From a candidate division WOR-3 bacterium (GTDB lineage: Bacteria; Hydrothermota; Tepidihabitantia; Tepidihabitantales; CAIPLT01), in assembly GCA_026418155.1 (NCBI GenBank), contig JAOABV010000009.1, positions 1 to 44,833 of the forward strand: a DNA stretch of 44,833 nucleotides, written 5' to 3'. How positions within the stretch are numbered: position 1 is the first letter of the stretch; each line of letters begins with the position of its first letter. The translations under genes were made by a program, and so were the position numbers. Of the stretch, positions 10,121-42,634 are shown piece after piece. The notes beneath the pieces are model-generated. The model had not been told where the DNA came from. It worked only from the letters and a program-made list of their open reading frames with translations, and ran no database searches.

Positions 10121-13100
10121 CTACTCTTTGACAATTTTCAAAACTTTTTTCCCGGTTATATCTCCATTTAACACTTGGTAGTCGATTACGATAAAATAGA
10201 CTCCTGCAGGAATATCTTTCAAAAACAACGGTATATGATATTTGCCAGATGCAATTGAAGATTCTTTGACTAATCGGTTAAGCGAACCGGTTTGGTTAAA
10301 AAGTTTAATGGAAATTTTACTTGGTTGCGGAATGTTGCAAGAGACATTTGCTGAAATATTACACGGATTAGGTTTAACATCAAAAAGAAACTTCGAGACT
10401 GAAACTGTAGTTTTTTCTTGAATTACAGGATATGTTATGGTCGAATTGGTGTTGTCCGCTAAGAAGTTTTTGTCAACATAAGGAACATAATTCCAGAATT
10501 CACGAGTATTATTACCTTTCTGGAGATAGATTTTGGCTGTACTTGCAGTTAATCCAGCACCGCCTTTAGGTACACTCTTTTTATCAAGTCTTCTTATCGT
10601 ATCTAATAAAGTCCAAGTGCCTTTATTGTCATTGGGAGTATATTTCCAAAATTCGTTGACGCCACCGCCTTTGATAGCATAAATTTCATTATTGAGCACA
10701 GTCAGGGCACCACCGGCTTTTACTCGGGTTTTCTTATTTACATCCCAGAATGCTCTTTGAGGAATTGTATCGCGTAGACTATCTCCGGGCCGATAAGACC
10801 AGGAATCACCAATAATATCATAATAATAGAACTCGTTAACTTTAGAACATCCTTTGAGCGCATAAATTCGGGAATTACCGTCAAAAACAATTGCAGAGCC
10901 CGCCTTGAATAATTTATTATCTGGACCAGCCGGAGCATTCGGTTTTTTTATCCAGGTGTCGTATTCGACCGCATAAGCGTAAAATTCAAATTGATTATTA
11001 GCACCTTTCAGTAAATAGACAAAAGAGGTTTCTTCAAATTGTTTATTATTTTGAGGCATCTTCTTATCGATTAGTTGTAAAAACTTTTTACTCTGAGCAG
11101 GAACATAAGTTATACTTGAGCCATCTTTACCACAGCCACCAGGAATTGATTTCTTTTGAATCCAAGTGTCAGTTTTGGGATTATAAACCCAGAATTCGTC
11201 GGCATTGTTACCTTTGATTGCGTAAATTAGAGTATCACCGAAACACATTGAAGCGCCTTTTTTCACTTTGCGTGCTTTAGGTTCAATGCCAAGATAGGCA
11301 AATGGTATTTCAGATTTATTTATCCAAGATGAGTCCTTAATCTTATAAGCAAAGAAGTCTCGCGTATTATTACCTTTTAACACATAAATACTGGAGTCTA
11401 ATGGACAATAGACTAAACAACCACCATCTTTAACATTTTTGCCACTGATCCCTAATGGAATATCCTTTAGTTTATACCAACCGAAAATAGGTTGTGGTGG
11501 AGGAATTACAGTCAATTTTCTTGGTTCTGAGGTCGGTCCGTATGGCATACCAGCTCTTACTCGCCAATAATAAGTGCCACCGGGCATTGAAAGATTATAA
11601 AAAGTATCCGAAGTTGTATTAACCGAATAAGCAATTTGGAATAATGAGTCACGAGCAATTTGCAACTCATAAATAGTAGCACCAGCAACCGAGTGCCATT
11701 GGAAAGGAATTGTAATTGCTAAAGTTTCAAGTCTGTTAGTTGGATAGATTAACGAAGGACCAAGTGGATACCAGGTGACAGAAAAGTCATCAAGATACCA
11801 CCAGTATTCATCATAGGCACCATAAAGAAAACAGACCCGAACATCAGGTTTTCCTGATGCATAAGCAGAGATGTTATGCACTTTTCGACCCGAATCAGTA
11901 ACATTGGTATATTGAGCAATTCTGGTCCAAGTCAAACCGCCATTATTACTTATCATTACAACTCCTGAATCTCGTCGGGTTGAATTCCAATCCCGGTACC
12001 AATGCCAATAAGAAAGATTATAAATGCCCGGATTAGAGCAATTCAGTCGTGGTGAGATTAATCGGTCATTATGGTTTTCTCGTGGACTGAAAAAGATTTT
12101 AGCAATAGTTCTGATATTAGAACCATAACGACAAGTATCACGGTACCAATCATTGGTGTTCCAAGTCGCAGGATTTTCCGTGCCGCCAGCAACAATCCGC
12201 CAGCCACCAAAAGGCGGCGCATCACCATAAGGACCCCAGTTTTCATTAAAATTGGCAGAATAGGGAATAGTTTGATATTTAGGCGCAATTACTGCATTGC
12301 GTCTTAAGGTATCGTTAGCAGGGTTCTGGTCATTGGGATTTTTCGTCCAGGTTTTTATGACAATTGTATCATATTCAGTCGGATTAAAGGGGTCAAAGGT
12401 AATCGTGCAGATTTCTCCTTCTTCTAAGGAGAGAACTTCAGTTGAATCAAGATAATTGAGCGTATTACCAGTGATTTGATAGAAGACCCAAACATCACTG
12501 GCACCGGTGTTGATGCTGTTGTTTCGAAAAGTCGCTTTTGGTGTATAGACAGAGTCAATAATGATTGGTAAATTCGGTGCGTCAATTCTTTCGGCAAAAA
12601 AATCGTAATGCGGAATTGGCTGAGGTAATATAATATCATCTAATCCAATCCAGTATTTATCAAAACAACGATAATGGAATGCAATATACAAATTAGCACT
12701 GTCAGTGAGATTTAAGGGGATAATTTTTCTTTGCCAATTGGTATTGTTAGTCACAATTCTTTGTAGTAAGACAAAATTTGCCGTGTCGAGATTATTTGCC
12801 GATGAGATGCGCACTAATAGTGTTTCGTAATAACTGGCTGATGCTGAACGATACCAAAAGATTATTGAGTCATTAGGAGCACAAGCAACCTGAGGACTTA
12901 TTAACCAGTCATTATTGGGCCAATAAGGATATTGGTCATAAACAATACGAACACCAGCAGGTTTAGTATAATAAGCACTTAGAGTATCCCGCATCCATTG
13001 GTTACCGCCATTGAAATTATAGATTGTCCAGCCAGCCGGTGGAAAATCAGTTGATTCAAAAGTCTGGCGGTACCCATGAGTATATACAAACACTGAGTGT

Positions 13101-14176
13101 TGAGCCGTATCATTGTCAGGAACTGGGTCACCGCTCAGTTCGGTCCAAACTTTTATTTGCCAATCTCCAGGTTGATTGGGAACATTCCAGGCTGGTTCAA
13201 ATGTGATAATTTCAGTTCCATTACGAGCAAGCGAAGTTTGGGTGTAACCAGTATCCATATAAGTCTCAGTGCCTGTGATTTGCAGAATTACCGGAATACC
13301 TGGAGATAAAGTATTTCTGCCGTAATTTCTTACTTGGGCTTTAATGGATATTGAGGTATCACTTTTTTGTACTTTATCAACATCAACTATTTGCTCTGTG
13401 CCAATATTATTATCTAAAGGCGTATAACTGACTACTGCTTCTTGAAGAAAATCATAATTGTAATAACTCCAAGATTGAGTAGGCAATCTCCGTGCATTTC
13501 TGGTTGTATCGGAATTTAATGAACCATCAATGAGTTGATAAACATCTGTAGTTAAACAGAAAATACCAATCCAGAAATTTTCGCCTGGATTGAAAGTGAT
13601 ATTAGAAGTTGTAAAAGTTAAACTAAACCAGGCATAGTAACCTGCCTGCCAAGTGCCGATTGTATACAAAGATCTAAATACAGATCGGCCTGGTCGGTGG
13701 ACATCATTTACAATTGTGTCGCGCCAAATTAATAAACTGCAAGGTGCAGGCGCGGTACTTGCGGGTCGATATAATGCAAAACGAATTGCTTTCACTGTAC
13801 ACTGAGATGCGGATAAACTTGGCATAGTTAAGCGAGTAGCAAAATAAGTTGAATCGATTGTAAAATAACTGCTTGCTGTTCTATCATGATTGCGAAGTGT
13901 GTCTAAGCCAGCGCCGGTTAAAAGAAGGTGCGATGCGTGAGGAACGATAGAAGAGAAACGAGGCGAAATTTTAGAAACAGTGAAAGAAGGTAAGTCAGGT
14001 TCATATTCAATAATTTCGGATTTAAGAGCAAAATTTTTACCAATTTGTTTCGCAACAACTGGAATAGTTAAATCCGTAAAAGAGGATTTCGGTTCTGACT
14101 TTGATATTGCATCGGAAAAAGAATATAAATTGAAAATTAAAAACCAAAAACTAAAAATTAATATTCGTATTTTCAT
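10121..14176 (-). CDS. Secreted multidomain Kelch-like protein with Por/T9SS-type C-terminal domain
   Basis: A 1351-aa surface or secreted protein. Order: signal peptide (1-21, ending YSFSDA); jelly-roll-like region; CARDB-like domain (about 258-360); choice-of-anchor/MAM-like domain (about 375-520, FPPAGWTIYNF and WLISPQ); second CARDB-like segment (about 525-625); second choice-of-anchor domain (about 640-800, FGGW and DRLISPRL); fibronectin-III-like segment (about 805-885); at least five Kelch-like repeats with IYALKG/FWxY motifs (about 900-1255); and a C-terminal beta domain (about 1270-1351) with FDVKPNPC, ISIKLFNQTG, PAGVYFI and KVLKI, as in type IX sorting domains. The ATG at 14176 is supported by the promoter 7 nt upstream; an in-frame codon at 14212 falls on the -35 box. 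Ligand unknown. Confidence 0.85.
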   Translation of the reverse strand: MKIRILIFSFWFLIFNLYSFSDAISKSEPKSSFTDLTIPVVAKQIGKNFALKSEIIEYEPDLPSFTVSKISPRFSSIVPHASHLLLTGAGLDTLRNHDRTASSYFTIDSTYFATRLTMPSLSASQCTVKAIRFALYRPASTAPAPCSLLIWRDTIVNDVHRPGRSVFRSLYTIGTWQAGYYAWFSLTFTTSNITFNPGENFWIGIFCLTTDVYQLIDGSLNSDTTRNARRLPTQSWSYYNYDFLQEAVVSYTPLDNNIGTEQIVDVDKVQKSDTSISIKAQVRNYGRNTLSPGIPVILQITGTETYMDTGYTQTSLARNGTEIITFEPAWNVPNQPGDWQIKVWTELSGDPVPDNDTAQHSVFVYTHGYRQTFESTDFPPAGWTIYNFNGGNQWMRDTLSAYYTKPAGVRIVYDQYPYWPNNDWLISPQVACAPNDSIIFWYRSASASYYETLLVRISSANNLDTANFVLLQRIVTNNTNWQRKIIPLNLTDSANLYIAFHYRCFDKYWIGLDDIILPQPIPHYDFFAERIDAPNLPIIIDSVYTPKATFRNNSINTGASDVWVFYQITGNTLNYLDSTEVLSLEEGEICTITFDPFNPTEYDTIVIKTWTKNPNDQNPANDTLRRNAVIAPKYQTIPYSANFNENWGPYGDAPPFGGWRIVAGGTENPATWNTNDWYRDTCRYGSNIRTIAKIFFSPRENHNDRLISPRLNCSNPGIYNLSYWHWYRDWNSTRRDSGVVMISNNGGLTWTRIAQYTNVTDSGRKVHNISAYASGKPDVRVCFLYGAYDEYWWYLDDFSVTWYPLGPSLIYPTNRLETLAITIPFQWHSVAGATIYELQIARDSLFQIAYSVNTTSDTFYNLSMPGGTYYWRVRAGMPYGPTSEPRKLTVIPPPQPIFGWYKLKDIPLGISGKNVKDGGCLVYCPLDSSIYVLKGNNTRDFFAYKIKDSSWINKSEIPFAYLGIEPKARKVKKGASMCFGDTLIYAIKGNNADEFWVYNPKTDTWIQKKSIPGGCGKDGSSITYVPAQSKKFLQLIDKKMPQNNKQFEETSFVYLLKGANNQFEFYAYAVEYDTWIKKPNAPAGPDNKLFKAGSAIVFDGNSRIYALKGCSKVNEFYYYDIIGDSWSYRPGDSLRDTIPQRAFWDVNKKTRVKAGGALTVLNNEIYAIKGGGVNEFWKYTPNDNKGTWTLLDTIRRLDKKSVPKGGAGLTASTAKIYLQKGNNTREFWNYVPYVDKNFLADNTNSTITYPVIQEKTTVSVSKFLFDVKPNPCNISANVSCNIPQPSKISIKLFNQTGSLNRLVKESSIASGKYHIPLFLKDIPAGVYFIVIDYQVLNGDITGKKVLKIVKE

Positions 14177-14183
14177 AGATATA

Positions 14184-14212
14184 AGTATAATTTGAAATTT
14201 GATAATTGTCAA
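14184..14212 (-). promoter_or_regulatory. Promoter of the Kelch-like protein gene, leaderless type
   Basis: Minus strand: TTGACA (14212-14207), 17-bp spacer, TATACT (14189-14184), 7 nt to the ATG at 14176. Near-consensus in both boxes; no Shine-Dalgarno is possible in so short a leader. Confidence 0.85.
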
Positions 14213-21682: not shown

Positions 21683-23588
21683 TTTTGATATTTGATTTTT
21701 GGTCTTTCTTTAAGTGGACCATTAAAGCAAATATTGCTGAGGGGGTCACGCCAGGAATTCTTTGCGCTTGGCCAAGATTATCCGGCTTAAATTTAGTTAG
21801 TTTTTCTTTTATTTCATTAGATAAACCATGGACAGTTCGAAAATCGAGACTGCTCGGAATTTTGATATTCTCCAATTCGTTAAATTTTTCAATGTCATTT
21901 AAGGTTCTCTCAATATATCCTTTATATTTCACTTCAATTTCAATGTTCCAAATTAAAGAGGTGTCTTTTAATAAGGGAATATTTGCTGGGGAAATGATTT
22001 CTGCAAGATGCGAATAACTTATTTCAGGTCTTCTTAATAATTCTTCTAAAGTAACCGAATACCTCAGGGGAGCAGTATTAAATTGTTTAAGTTTCCTATT
22101 AATTTTATCAGATGGTGAGATACGGGTTCGCTTCAACCAATCTAAGGTTTCGTTAATCTTTTTCTGTTTTTGTAAAACTTTTTTATAGTATTTATAAGGA
22201 ATCAAACCAAGTTGATAACCTTTGGGTGTTAATCTTAAATCGGCATTATCTTCGCGTAAAAGTAGTCGATATTCAACTCGGGAAGTAAACATTCGATAAG
22301 GTTCATTCGTGCCTTTAGTAATTAAATCATCAATCATTACACCAATATAAGCATCAGCCCGGGTCAAAATAAATTCGGGTTTTTCTTGGGCTTTTAATGC
22401 CGCATTAATACCGGCAATCAAGCCTTGAGCACCAGCTTCTTCATAACCAGTTGTGCCATTAATCTGACCAGCAAAAAATAAGTTCTCATATAGTCTTGTT
22501 TCTAAAGTTGGCTTTAATTGTGTTGGGTCAGAATAATCGTGTTCAATGGCATATCCTGGTCTTAAAATTTCAACCTCTTCCAATCCTTTAATACTTCGTA
22601 ACATCTTAATCTGAATATCTAAAGGTAGGCTAGTCGAAATACCATTAGGATAATATTCAATTGTATTTAATCCTTCGGGTTCAATAAAAATTTGATGTCG
22701 GTCTCGTTCAGGAAACTTTACAATCTTATCTTCAATTGATGGACAATATCTGACACCAGTTCCTTTGATAATTCCAGTATATAATGGCGAGCGATTAAGG
22801 CCAGATTTTATAATTTGATGGGTTTTGGGATTAGTATAAGTGATATAACAAGGACGATAATTTTTGACTTTCTTCTTGGTCCAGAATGAGAAAGGAATTG
22901 GTGGTTCATCGCCATATTGTGGTTCTAATTTAGCAAAATCAATTGTTCTGCCATCAAGTCGAGCCGGAGTCCCGGTTTTGAATCGGCCCATTGCAAAACC
23001 GAGTTCTTTTAAGTTTTGACTCAATTCGTTTGCCGGATATTCGCCTAATCTGCCTGAAGGAAAATTGACTAAGCCAATATGGATGAGACCTGATAAAAAA
23101 GTGCCTGGGGCAAGCACAATAGCTTTGGCATAAAACTTTTCACCAATTGTCGTTTCCACGCCAATTGCGATATTGCCTTTTACTAAAATTTTGCACACCG
23201 TGCCAGTATGAAGCAATAGATTTTGTTGTTGTTCTAACACTTCACGCATATAAGTCTTATAAAGTTGTCGGTCAGTTTGAGCTCGGGACGAATGCACTGC
23301 CTGACCTTTTTTAGTATTAAGTTGTCGATATTGAATTGCACTGCGGTCAGTATTTTTTCCCATCTCGCCACCAAGGGCATCAAGTTCTTTTACTAATTGG
23401 CCTTTACCAATGCCACCGATTGCGGGATTGCATGACATCAGTCCAATTGTATCAATATTCATTGTAATGAGCAAAGTTAAAGAACCGATTCGTGATGAGG
23501 CTAAAGCGGCTTCAATACCCGCATGACCACCGCCAACAACAATCACATCATATTTTCCACTATTTGGTGTAATGATATTATTCCGCAT
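21672..23588 (-). CDS. mnmG: tRNA uridine-5-carboxymethylaminomethyl modification enzyme, FAD subunit
   Basis: With MnmE (not in the window), installs the cmnm5 group at the wobble uridine of several tRNAs. At 638 aa it has the family length. Features: FAD-binding GGGHAGIEAA (from residue 19), CNPAIGGIGKGQLVKE, GTFLSG, and the second FAD segment NLFFAGQINGTTGYEEAGAQG. The last residues (KSNIKNEK) are low-complexity. The ATG at 23588 sits 8 nt after a -10 box, so the mRNA is predicted leaderless. No Shine-Dalgarno is present. Confidence 0.97.
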   Translation of the reverse strand: MRNNIITPNSGKYDVIVVGGGHAGIEAALASSRIGSLTLLITMNIDTIGLMSCNPAIGGIGKGQLVKELDALGGEMGKNTDRSAIQYRQLNTKKGQAVHSSRAQTDRQLYKTYMREVLEQQQNLLLHTGTVCKILVKGNIAIGVETTIGEKFYAKAIVLAPGTFLSGLIHIGLVNFPSGRLGEYPANELSQNLKELGFAMGRFKTGTPARLDGRTIDFAKLEPQYGDEPPIPFSFWTKKKVKNYRPCYITYTNPKTHQIIKSGLNRSPLYTGIIKGTGVRYCPSIEDKIVKFPERDRHQIFIEPEGLNTIEYYPNGISTSLPLDIQIKMLRSIKGLEEVEILRPGYAIEHDYSDPTQLKPTLETRLYENLFFAGQINGTTGYEEAGAQGLIAGINAALKAQEKPEFILTRADAYIGVMIDDLITKGTNEPYRMFTSRVEYRLLLREDNADLRLTPKGYQLGLIPYKYYKKVLQKQKKINETLDWLKRTRISPSDKINRKLKQFNTAPLRYSVTLEELLRRPEISYSHLAEIISPANIPLLKDTSLIWNIEIEVKYKGYIERTLNDIEKFNELENIKIPSSLDFRTVHGLSNEIKEKLTKFKPDNLGQAQRIPGVTPSAIFALMVHLKKDQKSNIKNEK

Positions 23589-23858: not shown

Positions 23859-24137
23859 TTAACGGAAGGCGTTGACTAATAAATAAATAATCCCGATAAC
23901 TGCAGTGATTACCCAAAGAAAGTCTTCAATCGTCCGAAATTGCCAGGGTTGCTCAAAAAACGATTTGGTGCGTTTGCCAAAAAAGAAAAGAATATAAAGC
24001 AGAATCGCAATTAACCAACCGAGTGCTTGATTAATATTCTTAATCTTAAATGCAAAGGATAAGAAAAATATAAGGACGATGATTTTAATTATTATATATA
24101 GCACTTGTCTTGACTTTTTCTCTTTTATTTCATCCAT
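23859..24137 (-). CDS. Small three-helix membrane protein
   Basis: A 92-aa protein with a charged N-terminus (MDEIKEKKSRQ), three hydrophobic segments (about 12-28, 35-52, 72-88) and a basic loop (FFGKRTKSFF). No family recognised. AGGGGTGAT, overlapping the stop of the HEAT-repeat gene, lies just before the ATG at 24137; a GTG at 24146 falls inside that site. It is the last gene of a three-gene operon. Confidence 0.6.
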   Translation of the reverse strand: MDEIKEKKSRQVLYIIIKIIVLIFFLSFAFKIKNINQALGWLIAILLYILFFFGKRTKSFFEQPWQFRTIEDFLWVITAVIGIIYLLVNAFR

Positions 24138-24148
24138 TATTATCACCC

Positions 24149-27070
24149 CTATTTCAATATTTCTTGATACTTTTTTATAACAAACTCATTTGTTTCTATT
24201 GCCATCTTTTCTTGTAATATTAATTTTGCTTCTTTGAATTGAGATAAGACTTCTACTGCTTTTAAGCGCACACTTGGATTGGAATGTTCTAAATAGGGTT
24301 TGATGATATTAATGATTTGTGCTCGGTCATTTTTCTTTTCAATTGTATCTAATTTAGCACCTAATACTCCGATTACTCCCAAAATTTTCGGGTCATTAGT
24401 TTTTGTTAATAAAAATTTTAAGGATGAATCACCGATTGAAACTAAGGCAGATTCTGCGGACATCCGCACAGTAAAAAACCTATCATTTAACGCATTATAA
24501 AGAGCAGGAATTGCTCTTGGGTCTTTAAGTTTTGCTAAGGCTCTGGCTGAGGCAATTCGTGTTGGTTCTTCTTTATCTTTAAGATAAGGAATTATTATTG
24601 GTACAATTGATGAGTCGCCAATATCTTCAAATGCTCCAATCATTGCTCGTGCTCGAATTCGTTTCTGATGGTATGCTAAGATTAAAGAGTCAATCGCATC
24701 TATCGCTTTGATTTTACCCAGTAAATAAGCCGAATTACTCCGTGCCCATCGGTCTTTATGATACAGTGACTGGTAGAGTAATTTTTTTAATTTATTTTTA
24801 ATTAAGGTATCAGGATAACTCGTATCCTGGATTGATTTTGTCAATTCTTCAATTGCTCTTAACTCTAATCCATCTTTAGTAGCAATTTTCTTGTCAAAAA
24901 TATAATTAATTGCTTGTTCCCCGCGTTTTAGTAATTCTTTTCTTCCGGCTCTGACTCTTTTTTTTGCACTGCCAACTTCCCATAAAGATGCCTCTTTGAA
25001 CACATCTTCAATTGGTCCAGTGATTAATTTTATTGTATCTGGTTCTTCTTGAATTTCGGCTTCAAGATCTCGTGGTTTGCCTTTAATGTCAATACCAAAA
25101 CCGTAAACTGATTGCGTCCAGTTTGTATTATTCTCAGCGAAAGATTCGCGCGGATATTTATCATCGCCCTGCAAATCTAAAAAGACGCCGATGCCACCAA
25201 ATCCACGAGACCAGTTTGCCATTCCTTGACCAAAATATTTTTCTTTTGTTGTGTAAATATCATCGCCTTCATTATCAATAAACAATCCCAATGAGTTCGT
25301 CAAACCAATGCCTTGTCCACCACTTGTGACATAGTAATCATTACCTTTTTTATCAATGAGAATGCCGACTGAAAAATCATGGCCTTCACCTTGTGCTGGT
25401 CCAAATCGGGAAAAATAATGGTCATTGCCTGAACGGTCAACTAATATTCCAATTGATAGGTGAATTCCGGCACCTTGAGAGTATTGTGTGGCATTATAAA
25501 AATCATTCCCTTCCTTATCGTATAACATTCCCAGTGAATACCAATAACTTGTGCCTTGCGCGTAAACACTGCCATTATAATAATCTTGACCAGATTTATC
25601 ATAAAGCAAAGCAATACCACCACTGGCAGTTGGACGAAAACCTATAGAGAAACCTTGACTCAAGGTCCGATAATCATTGGGCAATAGTGGTTTGTGAAGA
25701 TATTTGCCACCCGCATAATATAAGTCATTGCCGTCAAAATCGGTAAGTAGTCCATATCCCCAGGTAGAACTGAACGCTTGACAATTCTCATAGCCATAAT
25801 ATTTATCATTACCTTTAATATCAGTAAGCATACCGACACCGAGATTACCGGCTCCTTCACTAAAACATCCGGCAGAATAAATGTCATCGCCTTCATAATC
25901 TAATAAAACACCTGTGCCTAATAGTCCTGCACCTAATGAATTATGAAAACTTCGGTAAGTATCATTTCCTTTTTTATCAATTAAGATGCCACAACCTATT
26001 AGTGCAGCACCAAAGTTGAATAATTTTTCAGGAGTGTCATATAAATCATTCCCTTCTAAATCGATAACAACTGAGAAAGGATTAGATAAAATGCCGATAG
26101 CACTGCCAATTCGTGCTTGATATTTGTCGTCACCTCCAATATCAATAATTAAAGCATAATTTTTGTAAGTTCGTGCGCGATATTTATCATTACCAAAAGT
26201 ATCATTTCCATAATAGACGTTATCTTCTTCACTACCAATGACAATTTTGCCCCATTTAGTCTCTTGATAAAAATAGACTGAGCCAATAATACCGTCAACA
26301 TTAAATTTTGGCAGAGAATCAAAAAATATCTTCCCTAAATCCGGCATAACATTTTCAATTCCCATAGCAACTGCTAATCCACTAAGTGCCAATGCTTTTC
26401 GGTCAATCTTGGTAAATAGTTCTAAAATCGTGTCGATTTCAATCTTTTTACTCGTATCAATCTCAATACCGAATTCTCGATGTAAAGCACCTTTCAGACC
26501 ACTTAAAGTATCTTCTTCATCACTCCACAAAACAGGTGTCATCATTAAAAGTTTATCAATTTCAGAACGAGATAAATTTCTAATGGATTGTCTTAAATAC
26601 TTATCAGCGCACTCATAACTGGCTAAAATAGTGTTTACTTTTGAAATAAGATTTCTCGATGTTTTTATATGAAGCCCAGGTTTTATATGAATCCCGGTTT
26701 TTATATGAAGCTCAATCTCTTTGTCTAATTTTTTAAGGTCTTGATGAGTAATTTCTAAGTCGATTTGATTTGATAAGAAACTCAGTTGGTTGACTATTTT
26801 ATCCTTAAAATTATCAATCTCGTTTATGCTTTTATCAAGATAATCTGGTGTTTGTAAGGGTTGGTCTAAAAGTTGGGTGACGATTTTCAGACGATAAATA
26901 CTATCCCAAGCCCACTTTTTTTCAAAACCAAGCTCTTTTTCAGTTATACTTTGAATCTGAAGACATTCATTAATCTTTTCTCGTTCAATTTTGCCAAGCG
27001 AAGGTTCAATTGCCCAAGAAAAACTAAAAATAAAAAAACTAATCCAAAGAAGGAATTGTGATTTACTCAT
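24149..27070 (-). CDS. Exported GND-Y repeat / HEAT-repeat protein
   Basis: A 973-aa protein with a signal peptide (about 1-20). Residues about 283-640 contain roughly a dozen units of about 30 aa built on G-N/D-D-x-Y and a G-x-G-x-L-x-D core (for example GVLLDYEGDDIY, GILIDKKGNDYY), probably a repetitive beta structure. Residues about 740-960 are HEAT/PBS-lyase-type helices (RASARAL-like IASARALAKLKDPRAIPAL). An 18-bp tandem triplication encodes HIKTGI/HIKPGL/HIKTSR near residues 120-137. Role unknown; likely periplasmic or surface protein interaction. It starts 6 nt after the metallophosphatase stop. Confidence 0.75.
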   Translation of the reverse strand: MSKSQFLLWISFFIFSFSWAIEPSLGKIEREKINECLQIQSITEKELGFEKKWAWDSIYRLKIVTQLLDQPLQTPDYLDKSINEIDNFKDKIVNQLSFLSNQIDLEITHQDLKKLDKEIELHIKTGIHIKPGLHIKTSRNLISKVNTILASYECADKYLRQSIRNLSRSEIDKLLMMTPVLWSDEEDTLSGLKGALHREFGIEIDTSKKIEIDTILELFTKIDRKALALSGLAVAMGIENVMPDLGKIFFDSLPKFNVDGIIGSVYFYQETKWGKIVIGSEEDNVYYGNDTFGNDKYRARTYKNYALIIDIGGDDKYQARIGSAIGILSNPFSVVIDLEGNDLYDTPEKLFNFGAALIGCGILIDKKGNDTYRSFHNSLGAGLLGTGVLLDYEGDDIYSAGCFSEGAGNLGVGMLTDIKGNDKYYGYENCQAFSSTWGYGLLTDFDGNDLYYAGGKYLHKPLLPNDYRTLSQGFSIGFRPTASGGIALLYDKSGQDYYNGSVYAQGTSYWYSLGMLYDKEGNDFYNATQYSQGAGIHLSIGILVDRSGNDHYFSRFGPAQGEGHDFSVGILIDKKGNDYYVTSGGQGIGLTNSLGLFIDNEGDDIYTTKEKYFGQGMANWSRGFGGIGVFLDLQGDDKYPRESFAENNTNWTQSVYGFGIDIKGKPRDLEAEIQEEPDTIKLITGPIEDVFKEASLWEVGSAKKRVRAGRKELLKRGEQAINYIFDKKIATKDGLELRAIEELTKSIQDTSYPDTLIKNKLKKLLYQSLYHKDRWARSNSAYLLGKIKAIDAIDSLILAYHQKRIRARAMIGAFEDIGDSSIVPIIIPYLKDKEEPTRIASARALAKLKDPRAIPALYNALNDRFFTVRMSAESALVSIGDSSLKFLLTKTNDPKILGVIGVLGAKLDTIEKKNDRAQIINIIKPYLEHSNPSVRLKAVEVLSQFKEAKLILQEKMAIETNEFVIKKYQEILK

Positions 27071-27076
27071 TTTAGG

Positions 27077-28975
27077 TTACTCAATAAATTTTAATGTTGC
27101 GAAGGATTTTGGGTTATGTTCAAAAGGAACTGAATAGATGCTTACGGTCTCTTTACGCTTCTGAAAACGGACTAAATTAAAACCCCATTCAGTAGGTGTC
27201 TTGGAACTCAAGTCTTTTAAGGGAATTGCGATTTCCAAGGTCCAGCCCTTAAAACTTTTGGTATTCATAACCTGTCCTTTAGCAATAATATTACAGTTCC
27301 ATTTTGCATCTTTTTTAGAATCATTTCCTATCAGATAACATTTTCGGTCCATTACAGCACCATTAGCATTAACAAAAAATTGATAATAAGTATCACCTTT
27401 CACATCAGGCTGAAGAATGAAATTAAGATGGTCATCGTTATAAACTTTTTCATCCCGTTCTTTAATTGTAGTCGAAATCTTTTCAATTTCGTCATCGTTC
27501 ATTTTCGCACCAAGATAAATATAATTTTCGTCATAAGCAAACTGGACTTGCCAAGGGTCAGTTAAGGATATTTTGCCGTCACTGGAACCAAAAATATAAA
27601 TTGGCTTACTTTTTTGACCGAAACGGTCTTCATTACTTTTTGAATTATCGACTGAAATCAGTTTCGGATGCCAAATTGGTTCGTCTAACTTACCATCAAT
27701 ATTAATTGGTCTTTGGGTTTTAATACAAGTCGTAGTGAGTTTGATTGGTAATAATCGCTCAAGCAGATATATCTTTTTGCTATTAGCATAGGGATAGTGC
27801 AGTTTTATTTTGGGCAAAGGATAAATACTATCGCTTTTAATGCTTGTGGAAAATTCATATAACAAATTACTATCAGGTAGAATTGTGAGAATGGGGTTAG
27901 AAGGACTTATATACCATTGGCTATTTTCAGTTATCCATTCGCATTGTGTTGTAATCGGCGTTTCATTTATATTAGTTATTTTCAGAATGATGGAATTAGT
28001 TTTATCTATTGCAAAAGGTAAAATTTCAACTGCCTGTTCAATCTTTTTTATTTCTTGAATGTCTTGTAAAGTTACAACATCAGCGTTTAACTCTGAAAAT
28101 TTCGCTTTGGATGTAACGTGGTTATCGGCTTTGATAACTTCGAGATTAACTTTATCATTTTTTACTGATTTAAATGTATCGCGGTCTTCTACTTTGATAA
28201 CTTTGATATTAACTTTATTATTTTTTACGGAAACGACACTGAAATTTTGAAATGCGCCGAGTTCTTGTTTTCGGTAAATTTTGTATCTGCTACCGGAGGG
28301 GCCGACTTGGGTATAGGTAATGCCATCCCAAATTAATTGACAATAGAAATGGTCATGTCCAGAAAAGACATAGTCAACGCCATATTTCACAAACAATTTA
28401 TGAAAAGTATCGGGCTTATTATTAATATAAGCATCTTTCCAAAACGATTTATGCATAAAACAGAAAATGGTGGCGCTCTGCTTAAGTTTACTCAGTGTCG
28501 AATTCAACCAGTTCAATTGAATAGTATCAATCTCATTAACTTTTTCTTGTCGGCTATTATCTAAGACAACAAAATGATTATTACCAATTGAAAAAGCATA
28601 ATATGGTTTTTGATAACCAATGCGATAAAGATAAATTCGAAAACTCAGAGAATCCCATATATCGTGATTGCCGGGGGTAAAGTAAAATTTCTGTTTCCAT
28701 TTACCGAGATTAGAAAAAATTGAATCCCACTCAAGGTTAATGGTAGTTTCATTTTTTGTATATCCTTCAATTAAATCACCAACATTAATAATAAAGTCTG
28801 GTTTGATGGAATCAATCGCTAAAAGTATTTGTTCAAAAATTTCTTGCTCTGCGCTACCAGTCCTATCGCCTAAAACTACAAAGGTAAAATTTTTTTTATC
28901 AACACGAGGATTTATTGTTTGACTATAGACAAAAATGGGTAATAAAAGAAAGAATATAATTTTAATATGTTTCAT
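27077..28975 (-). CDS. Secreted metallophosphatase with CBM9-like C-terminal domain
   Basis: A 632-aa protein with a signal peptide (1-19, ending VYSQ). Calcineurin-like phosphoesterase motifs occur in order: LGDRTG, NVGDLIEG, PGNHDIW and SGHDHF (about 30-215), giving a di-metal site. A beta-rich linker follows; then a family-9-type carbohydrate-binding-like domain (about 420-632) with IDGKLDEPIW, YLGAKMNDDE and WTLEIAIPL. A 63-bp tandem duplication (28129 and 28192) makes two KxDKVNLEVIK-type segments. Substrate unknown. First gene of an operon with the GND-Y/HEAT protein. Confidence 0.82.
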   Translation of the reverse strand: MKHIKIIFFLLLPIFVYSQTINPRVDKKNFTFVVLGDRTGSAEQEIFEQILLAIDSIKPDFIINVGDLIEGYTKNETTINLEWDSIFSNLGKWKQKFYFTPGNHDIWDSLSFRIYLYRIGYQKPYYAFSIGNNHFVVLDNSRQEKVNEIDTIQLNWLNSTLSKLKQSATIFCFMHKSFWKDAYINNKPDTFHKLFVKYGVDYVFSGHDHFYCQLIWDGITYTQVGPSGSRYKIYRKQELGAFQNFSVVSVKNNKVNIKVIKVEDRDTFKSVKNDKVNLEVIKADNHVTSKAKFSELNADVVTLQDIQEIKKIEQAVEILPFAIDKTNSIILKITNINETPITTQCEWITENSQWYISPSNPILTILPDSNLLYEFSTSIKSDSIYPLPKIKLHYPYANSKKIYLLERLLPIKLTTTCIKTQRPINIDGKLDEPIWHPKLISVDNSKSNEDRFGQKSKPIYIFGSSDGKISLTDPWQVQFAYDENYIYLGAKMNDDEIEKISTTIKERDEKVYNDDHLNFILQPDVKGDTYYQFFVNANGAVMDRKCYLIGNDSKKDAKWNCNIIAKGQVMNTKSFKGWTLEIAIPLKDLSSKTPTEWGFNLVRFQKRKETVSIYSVPFEHNPKSFATLKFIE

Positions 28976-41020: not shown

Positions 41021-42634
41021 ATGACTGAAGATAAATTGCTGGAAAATTTATTGTCGCAAGACCCCAAAATTCGTTTTATTGCTCTAAAAACATTAAAAAA
41101 TCTTGGTGTTAAAAAAGCCACCGAAATATTAATACCTTTACTGGGTTCAGATAATCAAGTAGTTCGCGATAGTGCGGTAGCAACAGTTTTGGCATTAGGC
41201 AAGCCGGCAATCTCATATCTGCTTGATGCGCTGAAGTCACCTAATGAATTAATTAGAATGAATGCAGTTAGGATATTAAGTGAAATTGGAGATGCTTCAA
41301 TCAGCAGTGAACTTTTGGGGTTATTAAAAAAAGGAGATAGCAAAATTAAGGCTGCAGTTATTGATGTCTTGGGAAGAATCAAGGAATTCTGGACAATAGA
41401 ATATCTTCGGGATTTTCTCAAAGCGCCTGAGCCGGTAGTACGTGCTGCTTCGGCGCGAGCACTTGGTGAACTAAAAGATAAATTAGCCATTGATGCGCTT
41501 TTGTTCCTTTTGTCGGATAAAGAAAAAGAAGTGAGAATTGCTGCAATTGATGCGTTAAGTAAAATTGGAGATATTCGCGCTTGTGATAATCTTTGGCAGG
41601 TGGCCAGCAATGATGTTGACTTTGAAGTTAGAAGCAAAGCAATGTCGGCTTTGAAAACAATTGGTGCAGAAATACTTAAACCTTACGAGGAGTGGTTAGT
41701 GTCAAAAGATATTAATAAAAGAGATTCGGCACGCTTAAAATTGTCGTCAATTGGTAAACCGGTGCTTTTGCCTTTATTGGAATATACCAAACATTATGAT
41801 GCCTCGGTGCGTGAATTGAGCGCGAAAATCTTAGGCGATATTGGCGATAATTTTGCAACCGCCAGACTAATTGAATTGGCAAACGATATTGACCAAGATG
41901 TAAAAATAACCGCAATTGAAGCGCTGGGAAAAATAAAATCCGAATCAGCAATTCGGTTTCTTTTATCTTGTTTGGAAAGTCCTGATAGTTCAGTTGTTAA
42001 TGTAGCTACTGAATCTTTAAGTAAAACAGGTAAAGAACTTATAAAATTTTTACCAGCAATTCTTAGTGAACATAATGTTCAAAAACAAATTAATATTGTT
42101 CAATTAATTGCTAAAATCGGTGATGTTGAATATATTCCTTTACTTAGTGAATATATTGACCACCCAAGTATATGGGTACGAATGACAATCTGTTCAGCCT
42201 TGGGGGAATTAAAAAGTCCGTTATCAGCCGATTTATTATTAAAAAAACTTTATGACGACCCATCGCCATTGGTTCGAGTAGCATCAGCGAAGGCATTTGG
42301 TAAATTAAAAATTCCTGAAAAAATCGATTCTTTAATTTGGGCTTTACAAGAAGAAAAAGAGGAGACAGTTCAAATCGCAATTATTGATGCGCTTGCCGAA
42401 ATAGGTGAAGAAATGGTAGGTTCGTTTTTGCTAAAGTATTTGTCGCAGGATTCGATAGAATTAAAAATTGCTACGATAAAAGCATTAGGAAAGATAGGTT
42501 ATTTCGGTGCTATTCCTTTCTTAAAAAAAATAACCCAGCCCTGGCCATTTAGTAATGAAAATGCAGAAGTTAAAAGTATTGCTCGGGAAGTATTGAAAAA
42601 ATTAAGTCTTGAATCAACAATCAGTAAACCCTAA
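41021..42634 (+). CDS. Cytoplasmic HEAT-repeat (PBS-lyase-type) protein
   Basis: A 537-aa protein made almost wholly of 31-residue helical repeats (for example VRAASARALGELKDKLAIDALL, here VRAASARALGEL and KDKLAIDALL), about 16 units. No signal peptide, membrane segment or catalytic motif. Such scaffolds bind proteins; a few bind DNA or phycobilins, but nothing here indicates which. Distinct in architecture from the exported HEAT protein at 24149-27070. No Shine-Dalgarno at optimal spacing. Confidence 0.85.
   Translation: MTEDKLLENLLSQDPKIRFIALKTLKNLGVKKATEILIPLLGSDNQVVRDSAVATVLALGKPAISYLLDALKSPNELIRMNAVRILSEIGDASISSELLGLLKKGDSKIKAAVIDVLGRIKEFWTIEYLRDFLKAPEPVVRAASARALGELKDKLAIDALLFLLSDKEKEVRIAAIDALSKIGDIRACDNLWQVASNDVDFEVRSKAMSALKTIGAEILKPYEEWLVSKDINKRDSARLKLSSIGKPVLLPLLEYTKHYDASVRELSAKILGDIGDNFATARLIELANDIDQDVKITAIEALGKIKSESAIRFLLSCLESPDSSVVNVATESLSKTGKELIKFLPAILSEHNVQKQINIVQLIAKIGDVEYIPLLSEYIDHPSIWVRMTICSALGELKSPLSADLLLKKLYDDPSPLVRVASAKAFGKLKIPEKIDSLIWALQEEKEETVQIAIIDALAEIGEEMVGSFLLKYLSQDSIELKIATIKALGKIGYFGAIPFLKKITQPWPFSNENAEVKSIAREVLKKLSLESTISKP

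Follow-up and report, generated by a model that had tools for sequence, protein, structure and literature searches.

A GND-Y/HEAT protein from a candidate division WOR-3 bacterium belongs to a large family of predicted exported repeat proteins in WOR-3 and Zixibacteria

Three genes behind a conserved promoter

The window analyzed here, a stretch of 44,833 nucleotides (contig JAOABV010000009.1, assembly GCA_026418155.1), is part of the 1.74 Mb draft genome of a candidate division WOR-3 bacterium. On its minus strand, to which all coordinates below refer unless a strand is given, three consecutive open reading frames can be read at 27077–28975, 24149–27070, and 23859 to 24137 or 24146, and all three are genuine genes. 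The first encodes MPE, a metallophosphoesterase of 632 aa that has a CBM9-like domain at its C-terminus, the second MID, a 973-aa GND-Y/HEAT protein, both predicted to be exported, and the third TM (23859–24137, 92 aa), a small orphan membrane protein in which three hydrophobic helices are seen, in agreement with an earlier note made on the letters of this DNA. That note had described the genes as spaced by 6 nt or overlapping. The 6-nt gap between MPE and MID is as described, but MID and TM do not overlap, being separated by 2 nt if TM starts at GTG 24146 or by 11 nt if it starts at ATG 24137. The ATG is more likely to be the start because the GTG falls within a Shine-Dalgarno-like sequence, GGGGTGAT (24142–24149), which can be read directly in the window, shares its first base with the end of the MID stop codon, and lies 4 nt before the ATG.

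Upstream of MPE, TTGACC (29009–29004) and TATAAT (28987–28982) are separated by 16 nt and together match the promoter consensus at 11 of 12 positions. Only 6 nt lie between TATAAT and the MPE ATG at 28975, from which a leaderless start is predicted. The earlier note had proposed such a promoter, and the proposal is supported: the layout of TTGAC, TATAAT, and ATG is kept in 5/5 genomes of the family (that of the window and four others). Because the same layout precedes the MPE orthologue in all four other genomes, the prediction that the MPE message is leaderless is well supported. TTGAC and TATAAT-like boxes that end shortly before the ATG also lie upstream of the genes at 23588 (minus strand), 29600 (plus strand), and 39097 (plus strand); this genome may have many leaderless transcripts.

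A metallophosphoesterase with a CBM9-like domain

The naming of the first product as a metallophosphatase-CBM9 protein was borne out by profile searches, in which MPE matches Metallophos (1.1e-15, 59 bits against a Pfam cut-off of 21.5) and, over residues 477–610, CBM9_1 (1.5e-6, 28.6 bits against a Pfam cut-off of 23.4). The metal site expected of calcineurin-like metallophosphoesterases (GD / GD / GNH / H / GHxH) is present in MPE as GDR...GD...GNHD...H...GHxH, with the motif residues kept in 27–30 of 30 homologues. The GD, GD, GNHD, H, and GHxH motifs that MPE homologues have in common are those of the purple-acid-phosphatase type, and the best PDB sequence matches of MPE are plant purple acid phosphatases, although these are weak (1e-4), and MPE differs from that type in being bacterial and fused to a CBM9-like domain. 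Within this domain W559, W578, and D residues are conserved in homologues and carbohydrate binding is putative; the domain sits here in a phosphoesterase, not in a xylanase. The N-terminus of MPE is hydrophobic and signal-peptide-like, and relatives occur in 72/147 WOR-3 genomes (at 1e-8). The linker of MPE (approximately 28100–28235) contains a near-duplicate segment, VKNNKVNIKVIKVEDRDTFKS / VKNDKVNLEVIKADNHVTSKA, at which the alignment to each of the four family orthologues is interrupted between residues 263 and ~294.

Architecture of the GND-Y/HEAT protein

MID begins with a signal-peptide-like N-terminus (residues 1–20; 27011–27070), followed by an N-terminal domain of no known family (residues 21–285; 26216–27010) that is weakly conserved, with a mean column identity of 0.37, and that contains a private 18-bp tandem repeat encoding HIKxG three times (26663–26711). 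The GND-Y repeat region (residues 286–665; 25076–26215) contains 13 G[NDQ]DxY motifs, a number far beyond chance, as shuffles of the same protein have 0.05 on average and 2 at most. The unit frame is D-x-x-G-[ND]-D-x-Y with a spacing of mostly 26–28 aa. Twelve of the units are regarded as ancestral, because the motif at residue 293, an extra GNDKY, sits in a 15-aa insertion (residues 287–301; 26168–26212) that the alignment indicates is private to the source genome. In 48 sequences, conservation of the frame across the 12 ancestral units is 96% at the first D, 99% at G, 100% at the second D, and 98% at Y. Neither a Pfam family nor a PDB sequence relative was found for these repeats.

A conserved segment (residues 691–760; 24791–25000), which forms the start of the separate HEAT gene in genomes where the protein is split, precedes the HEAT repeats (residues 761–950; 24221–24790; repeats at ~765–945). 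These match HEAT_2 at 9.9e-20 (71.1 bits against a cut-off of 27.7), and 47/48 members match the HEAT profile as well. The joining of about a dozen GND-x-Y units to HEAT helices is the part of the earlier note that has proved durable. By phmmer this region matches alphaRep HEAT structures (best 1.1e-34). The C-terminal part of MID also scores well over the HEAT_2, HEAT, and HEAT_PBS cut-offs of Pfam. In this it resembles HEAT and PBS-lyase HEAT-like repeat proteins, from which MID differs in that its HEAT part is exported, is preceded by a conserved segment of its own, and is coupled to a beta-repeat protein.

Distribution and linkage of the GND-Y and HEAT parts

Relatives of MID were sought in two phyla, WOR-3 and the phylum around a Zixibacteria genome (here the Zixibacteria group), and are present in 123/147 genomes of the former, ~111 of them with E < 1e-40, and in 112/119 genomes of the latter. 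Viral contigs, phages, and plasmids were also searched and no relatives were found in them, so that an origin from such elements was rejected. In the open-access literature nothing was found on the GND-Y/HEAT protein or on these gene combinations; so far as this literature shows, the exported repeat proteins to which it belongs form a large family without a previous description.

The surroundings of the GND-Y genes were read at 82 WOR-3 and 41 Zixibacteria-group loci, with one duplicate in each set. Among the WOR-3 GND-Y genes, HEAT is fused in ~55/84 and next-door in 9 more; the 20/84 without an adjoining HEAT are mostly paralogues. Those at loci L096–L109 (~590–740 aa and 1110–1160 aa) mostly lack HEAT, and they keep H537 and D565 (MID numbering) and lose some other residues of the conserved edge discussed below. 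In the Zixibacteria group HEAT is a separate gene on the same strand and lies next-door in 36/40 distinct loci, often with a 4-nt overlap; of the other four, three are cut by contig ends and in one HEAT follows after an intervening gene. Since the first 20 loci had been taken as the top matches of a profile that contains HEAT, adjacency is favored among them, but in the second 20, chosen on matches to the repeat part only, HEAT is next-door in 18. In a tree of the repeat domain, split pairs are found in several branches, two of them within the fused clade, so that the switch between fused and split states took place more than once, with the two parts kept together throughout. Fusion or neighbor linkage across both phyla, together with these repeated switches, identifies GND-Y plus HEAT, and not the trio of genes seen in the window, as the conserved unit in comparisons of gene order.

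Both halves of this unit carry export signals as judged from their N-termini. Signal-peptide-like N-termini were scored by a simple hydrophobicity rule (a hydrophobic 10-mer near the N-terminus) rather than a trained predictor, and are present in 48/52 fused members, 40/41 Zixibacteria GND-Y proteins, and 35/37 separate HEAT proteins; by the same rule such a 10-mer occurs in 146/507 other genes of more than 300 aa. Export of MPE and MID, as the earlier note had suggested, is supported by these N-termini.

Neighboring genes

MPE adjoins MID in 5/5 genomes of the family, at a distance of 0–15 nt, and in that family only: at the loci read outside it, no MPE relative adjoins MID. The trio of MPE, MID, and TM is confined to the source genome. 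Among the 147 WOR-3 genomes no convincing relative of TM was found, the best match (5e-5) being weak, confined to hydrophobic segments, and, like the others, not adjoining MID. By these comparisons MPE is a family-level operon partner of MID, and TM is a private add-on of the source genome. The three-gene exported module of the earlier note was rejected because the trio occurs in one genome. That note had named the three genes never being together elsewhere as the observation that would count against it, and this is what is found for the trio, but not for MPE and MID. On the whole, its observations are partly confirmed and its interpretation is partly supported.

Elsewhere, the neighbors of MID in WOR-3 vary by family. 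In five genomes of another family (loci L040, L042, L043, L044, and L046) a secreted M6 peptidase is encoded 8–15 nt upstream of MID, in a third family the upstream neighbor is a GTPase-like gene, and at other loci the neighbors are unrelated genes. One family (L054, L058, L060, L062, and L064) has arrays of small exported proteins (~145–180 aa), similar to one another, immediately after MID. In the Zixibacteria group the genes after HEAT encode RNase_H_2-like and HDOD proteins, with pilin and response-regulator genes nearby; these look like local synteny and were set aside as a clue to function. At the loci read, no neighbor other than HEAT is common to both phyla.

Predicted fold of the GND-Y repeats

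Structure prediction, which the earlier note had proposed for these repeats, gave a suggestive picture at low confidence. Two AlphaFold models were built from shallow alignments of 3 and 6 rows and reached mean pLDDT values of 60 and 70 and pTM values of 0.72 and 0.67. In the 6-row alignment, three rows were unmodified repeats of the first half placed against those of the second as a deliberate work-around, so that the second model calls for caution. Both models consist of all-beta 27-aa units in which two strands flank the GND-Y turn, and in the second model the strands are 9–10 aa long, two per repeat. Foldseek searches with the repeat models returned no structure match below E 0.001, but parallel beta-solenoids make up most of the weak lists, among them RTX beta-rolls, the Ca2+-dependent ice-binding solenoid MpAFP, pertactin, and phage tailspikes. 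Given the two-strand all-beta models and the content of these lists, the GND-Y repeats likely form a beta-solenoid and Ca2+ binding by the GND-Y turns is plausible; the modest pLDDT values and the lack of a match below E 0.001 keep both fold and Ca2+ binding from being firm.

RTX proteins, which appear in the weak fold matches, offer a close analogy. In these, each 18-aa coil is made of two tandem GGxGxDxUx nonapeptides, and a non-cleaved type I secretion signal lies at the C-terminus (PMC6891781). The likeness to GND-Y proteins lies in short G/D/N-rich turns between tandem beta-strands of exported proteins, with Ca2+ binding probable, and by this analogy the GND-Y protein may work like an RTX-type Ca2+ solenoid. 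Membership in the RTX family was, however, rejected on motif, period, and secretion signal: GGxGxD is missing from 45/48 GND-Y members and there is no Pfam RTX match, the unit is of 26–28 aa with one GxD turn, compared with 18 aa per coil, and an N-terminal signal peptide (48/52 fused members) and a HEAT C-terminus take the place of the C-terminal type I signal.

A conserved edge and its possible function

Conservation is concentrated in one half of the repeats. Across 48 WOR-3 sequences, invariant columns number 48/180 in units 7–12, compared with 18/168 in units 1–6 and 1/190 in HEAT. The most conserved half (residues 471–650; 25121–25660) contains Q472, R479, Q505, Y509, W510, Y530, Q532, H537, H564, D565, N592, and R622, which are conserved at 94–100% in WOR-3 fused proteins and 95–100% in Zixibacteria. 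H537 and D565 are at 100% in all five groups, paralogues included, and Q472, R479, Q505, Y509, W510, Q532, and H564 are near 100% in the main groups. Judged by register alone, four units in a row have W510, H537, H564, and N592 at position +16, and Q505 and Q532 both lie at +11. Polar and aromatic residues that hardly vary recur in this way at equivalent positions of consecutive repeats, opposite the GxDxY turn. In a solenoid, such residues would form a ladder along the edge opposite that turn, which suggests a ligand-binding or catalytic site rather than packing.

The reading that we favor by a modest margin of confidence is that MID is a Sec-exported, metal-stiffened beta-solenoid with a HEAT arm and a polymer-binding or catalytic edge, to which MPE is accessory and TM private. 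The D-x-x-G-[ND]-D-x-Y turns would be probable Ca2+-binding turns that stiffen the solenoid, the exported solenoid would bind or process an envelope or extracellular polymer through its conserved edge, and HEAT would serve as a protein-binding arm. Within the family, a single leaderless message would give rise to both MPE and MID, and MPE would probably act in the compartment of MID, as an accessory and not a core partner. A bolder form of this proposal, which we regard as speculative and rather unlikely, is that GND-Y proteins represent exported enzymes or receptors of a new class, with an active site on one edge of a 27-aa-per-coil solenoid (Q505/Y509/W510, Q532/H537, H564/D565, N592, and R622) and an obligate HEAT partner that was repeatedly fused and split, and that they perform a function central to the envelope of WOR-3 and Zixibacteria.

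An equally tentative alternative denies the GND-Y protein a catalytic site and gives it a solely structural role, as a Ca2+-dependent adhesin or scaffold of the surface or periplasm comparable to RTX-type or ice-adhesin solenoids. The repeat architecture and export of the protein and the resemblance of its turn to Ca2+-binding turns would suit such a role, as would the presence of RTX beta-rolls, MpAFP, pertactin, and phage tailspikes among the weak fold matches. It is rare, however, for structural solenoids to keep H, R, W, and Q residues of individual units unchanged from phylum to phylum, and here they are borne by one half of the solenoid, which is far better conserved than the rest. Less probable still is a true three-component envelope complex of MPE, the GND-Y/HEAT protein, and a membrane anchor, as the earlier note had proposed; tight spacing, a common conserved promoter, signal peptides, and a good ribosome-binding site ahead of TM speak for it, and the restriction of the trio to one genome, the lack of a convincing TM relative in 147 genomes, and the MPE relatives elsewhere in the phylum that are unlinked to MID speak against it. 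A beta-propeller-like or other non-solenoid repeat fold is the most improbable of these alternatives, since weak SBBP matches in 8/48 members (best 2.8e-4) and the possible pairing of units into ~53-aa blades are outweighed by two-stranded 27-aa units in both models and the absence of propellers among the first structure-search matches, which are mainly solenoids, and membership in the SBBP family was rejected because MID itself has no such match.

Whichever role the conserved edge of the exported solenoid may have, a protein present in most genomes of two uncultured phyla, and whose main part is without a Pfam or PDB relative, points to a common envelope or extracellular function that has yet to be named. 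The fixed pairing with HEAT and the few near-invariant residues provide a concrete entry point for structural work and mutagenesis, and, as regards the window, the proposal of a system of three genes is corrected.

Other proteins encoded in the window

Two further genes of the window are of note. On the plus strand, 41021–42634 encodes a separate 537-aa protein composed almost wholly of HEAT repeats (HEAT_2 3.1e-77). On the minus strand, 10121–14212 encodes a 1363-aa protein with Cleaved_Adhesin, Kelch-like, and Por_Secre_tail-like parts, the last at its end; Cleaved_Adhesin alone passes its Pfam cut-off, and the end of the protein hints at a type IX-like sorting signal.
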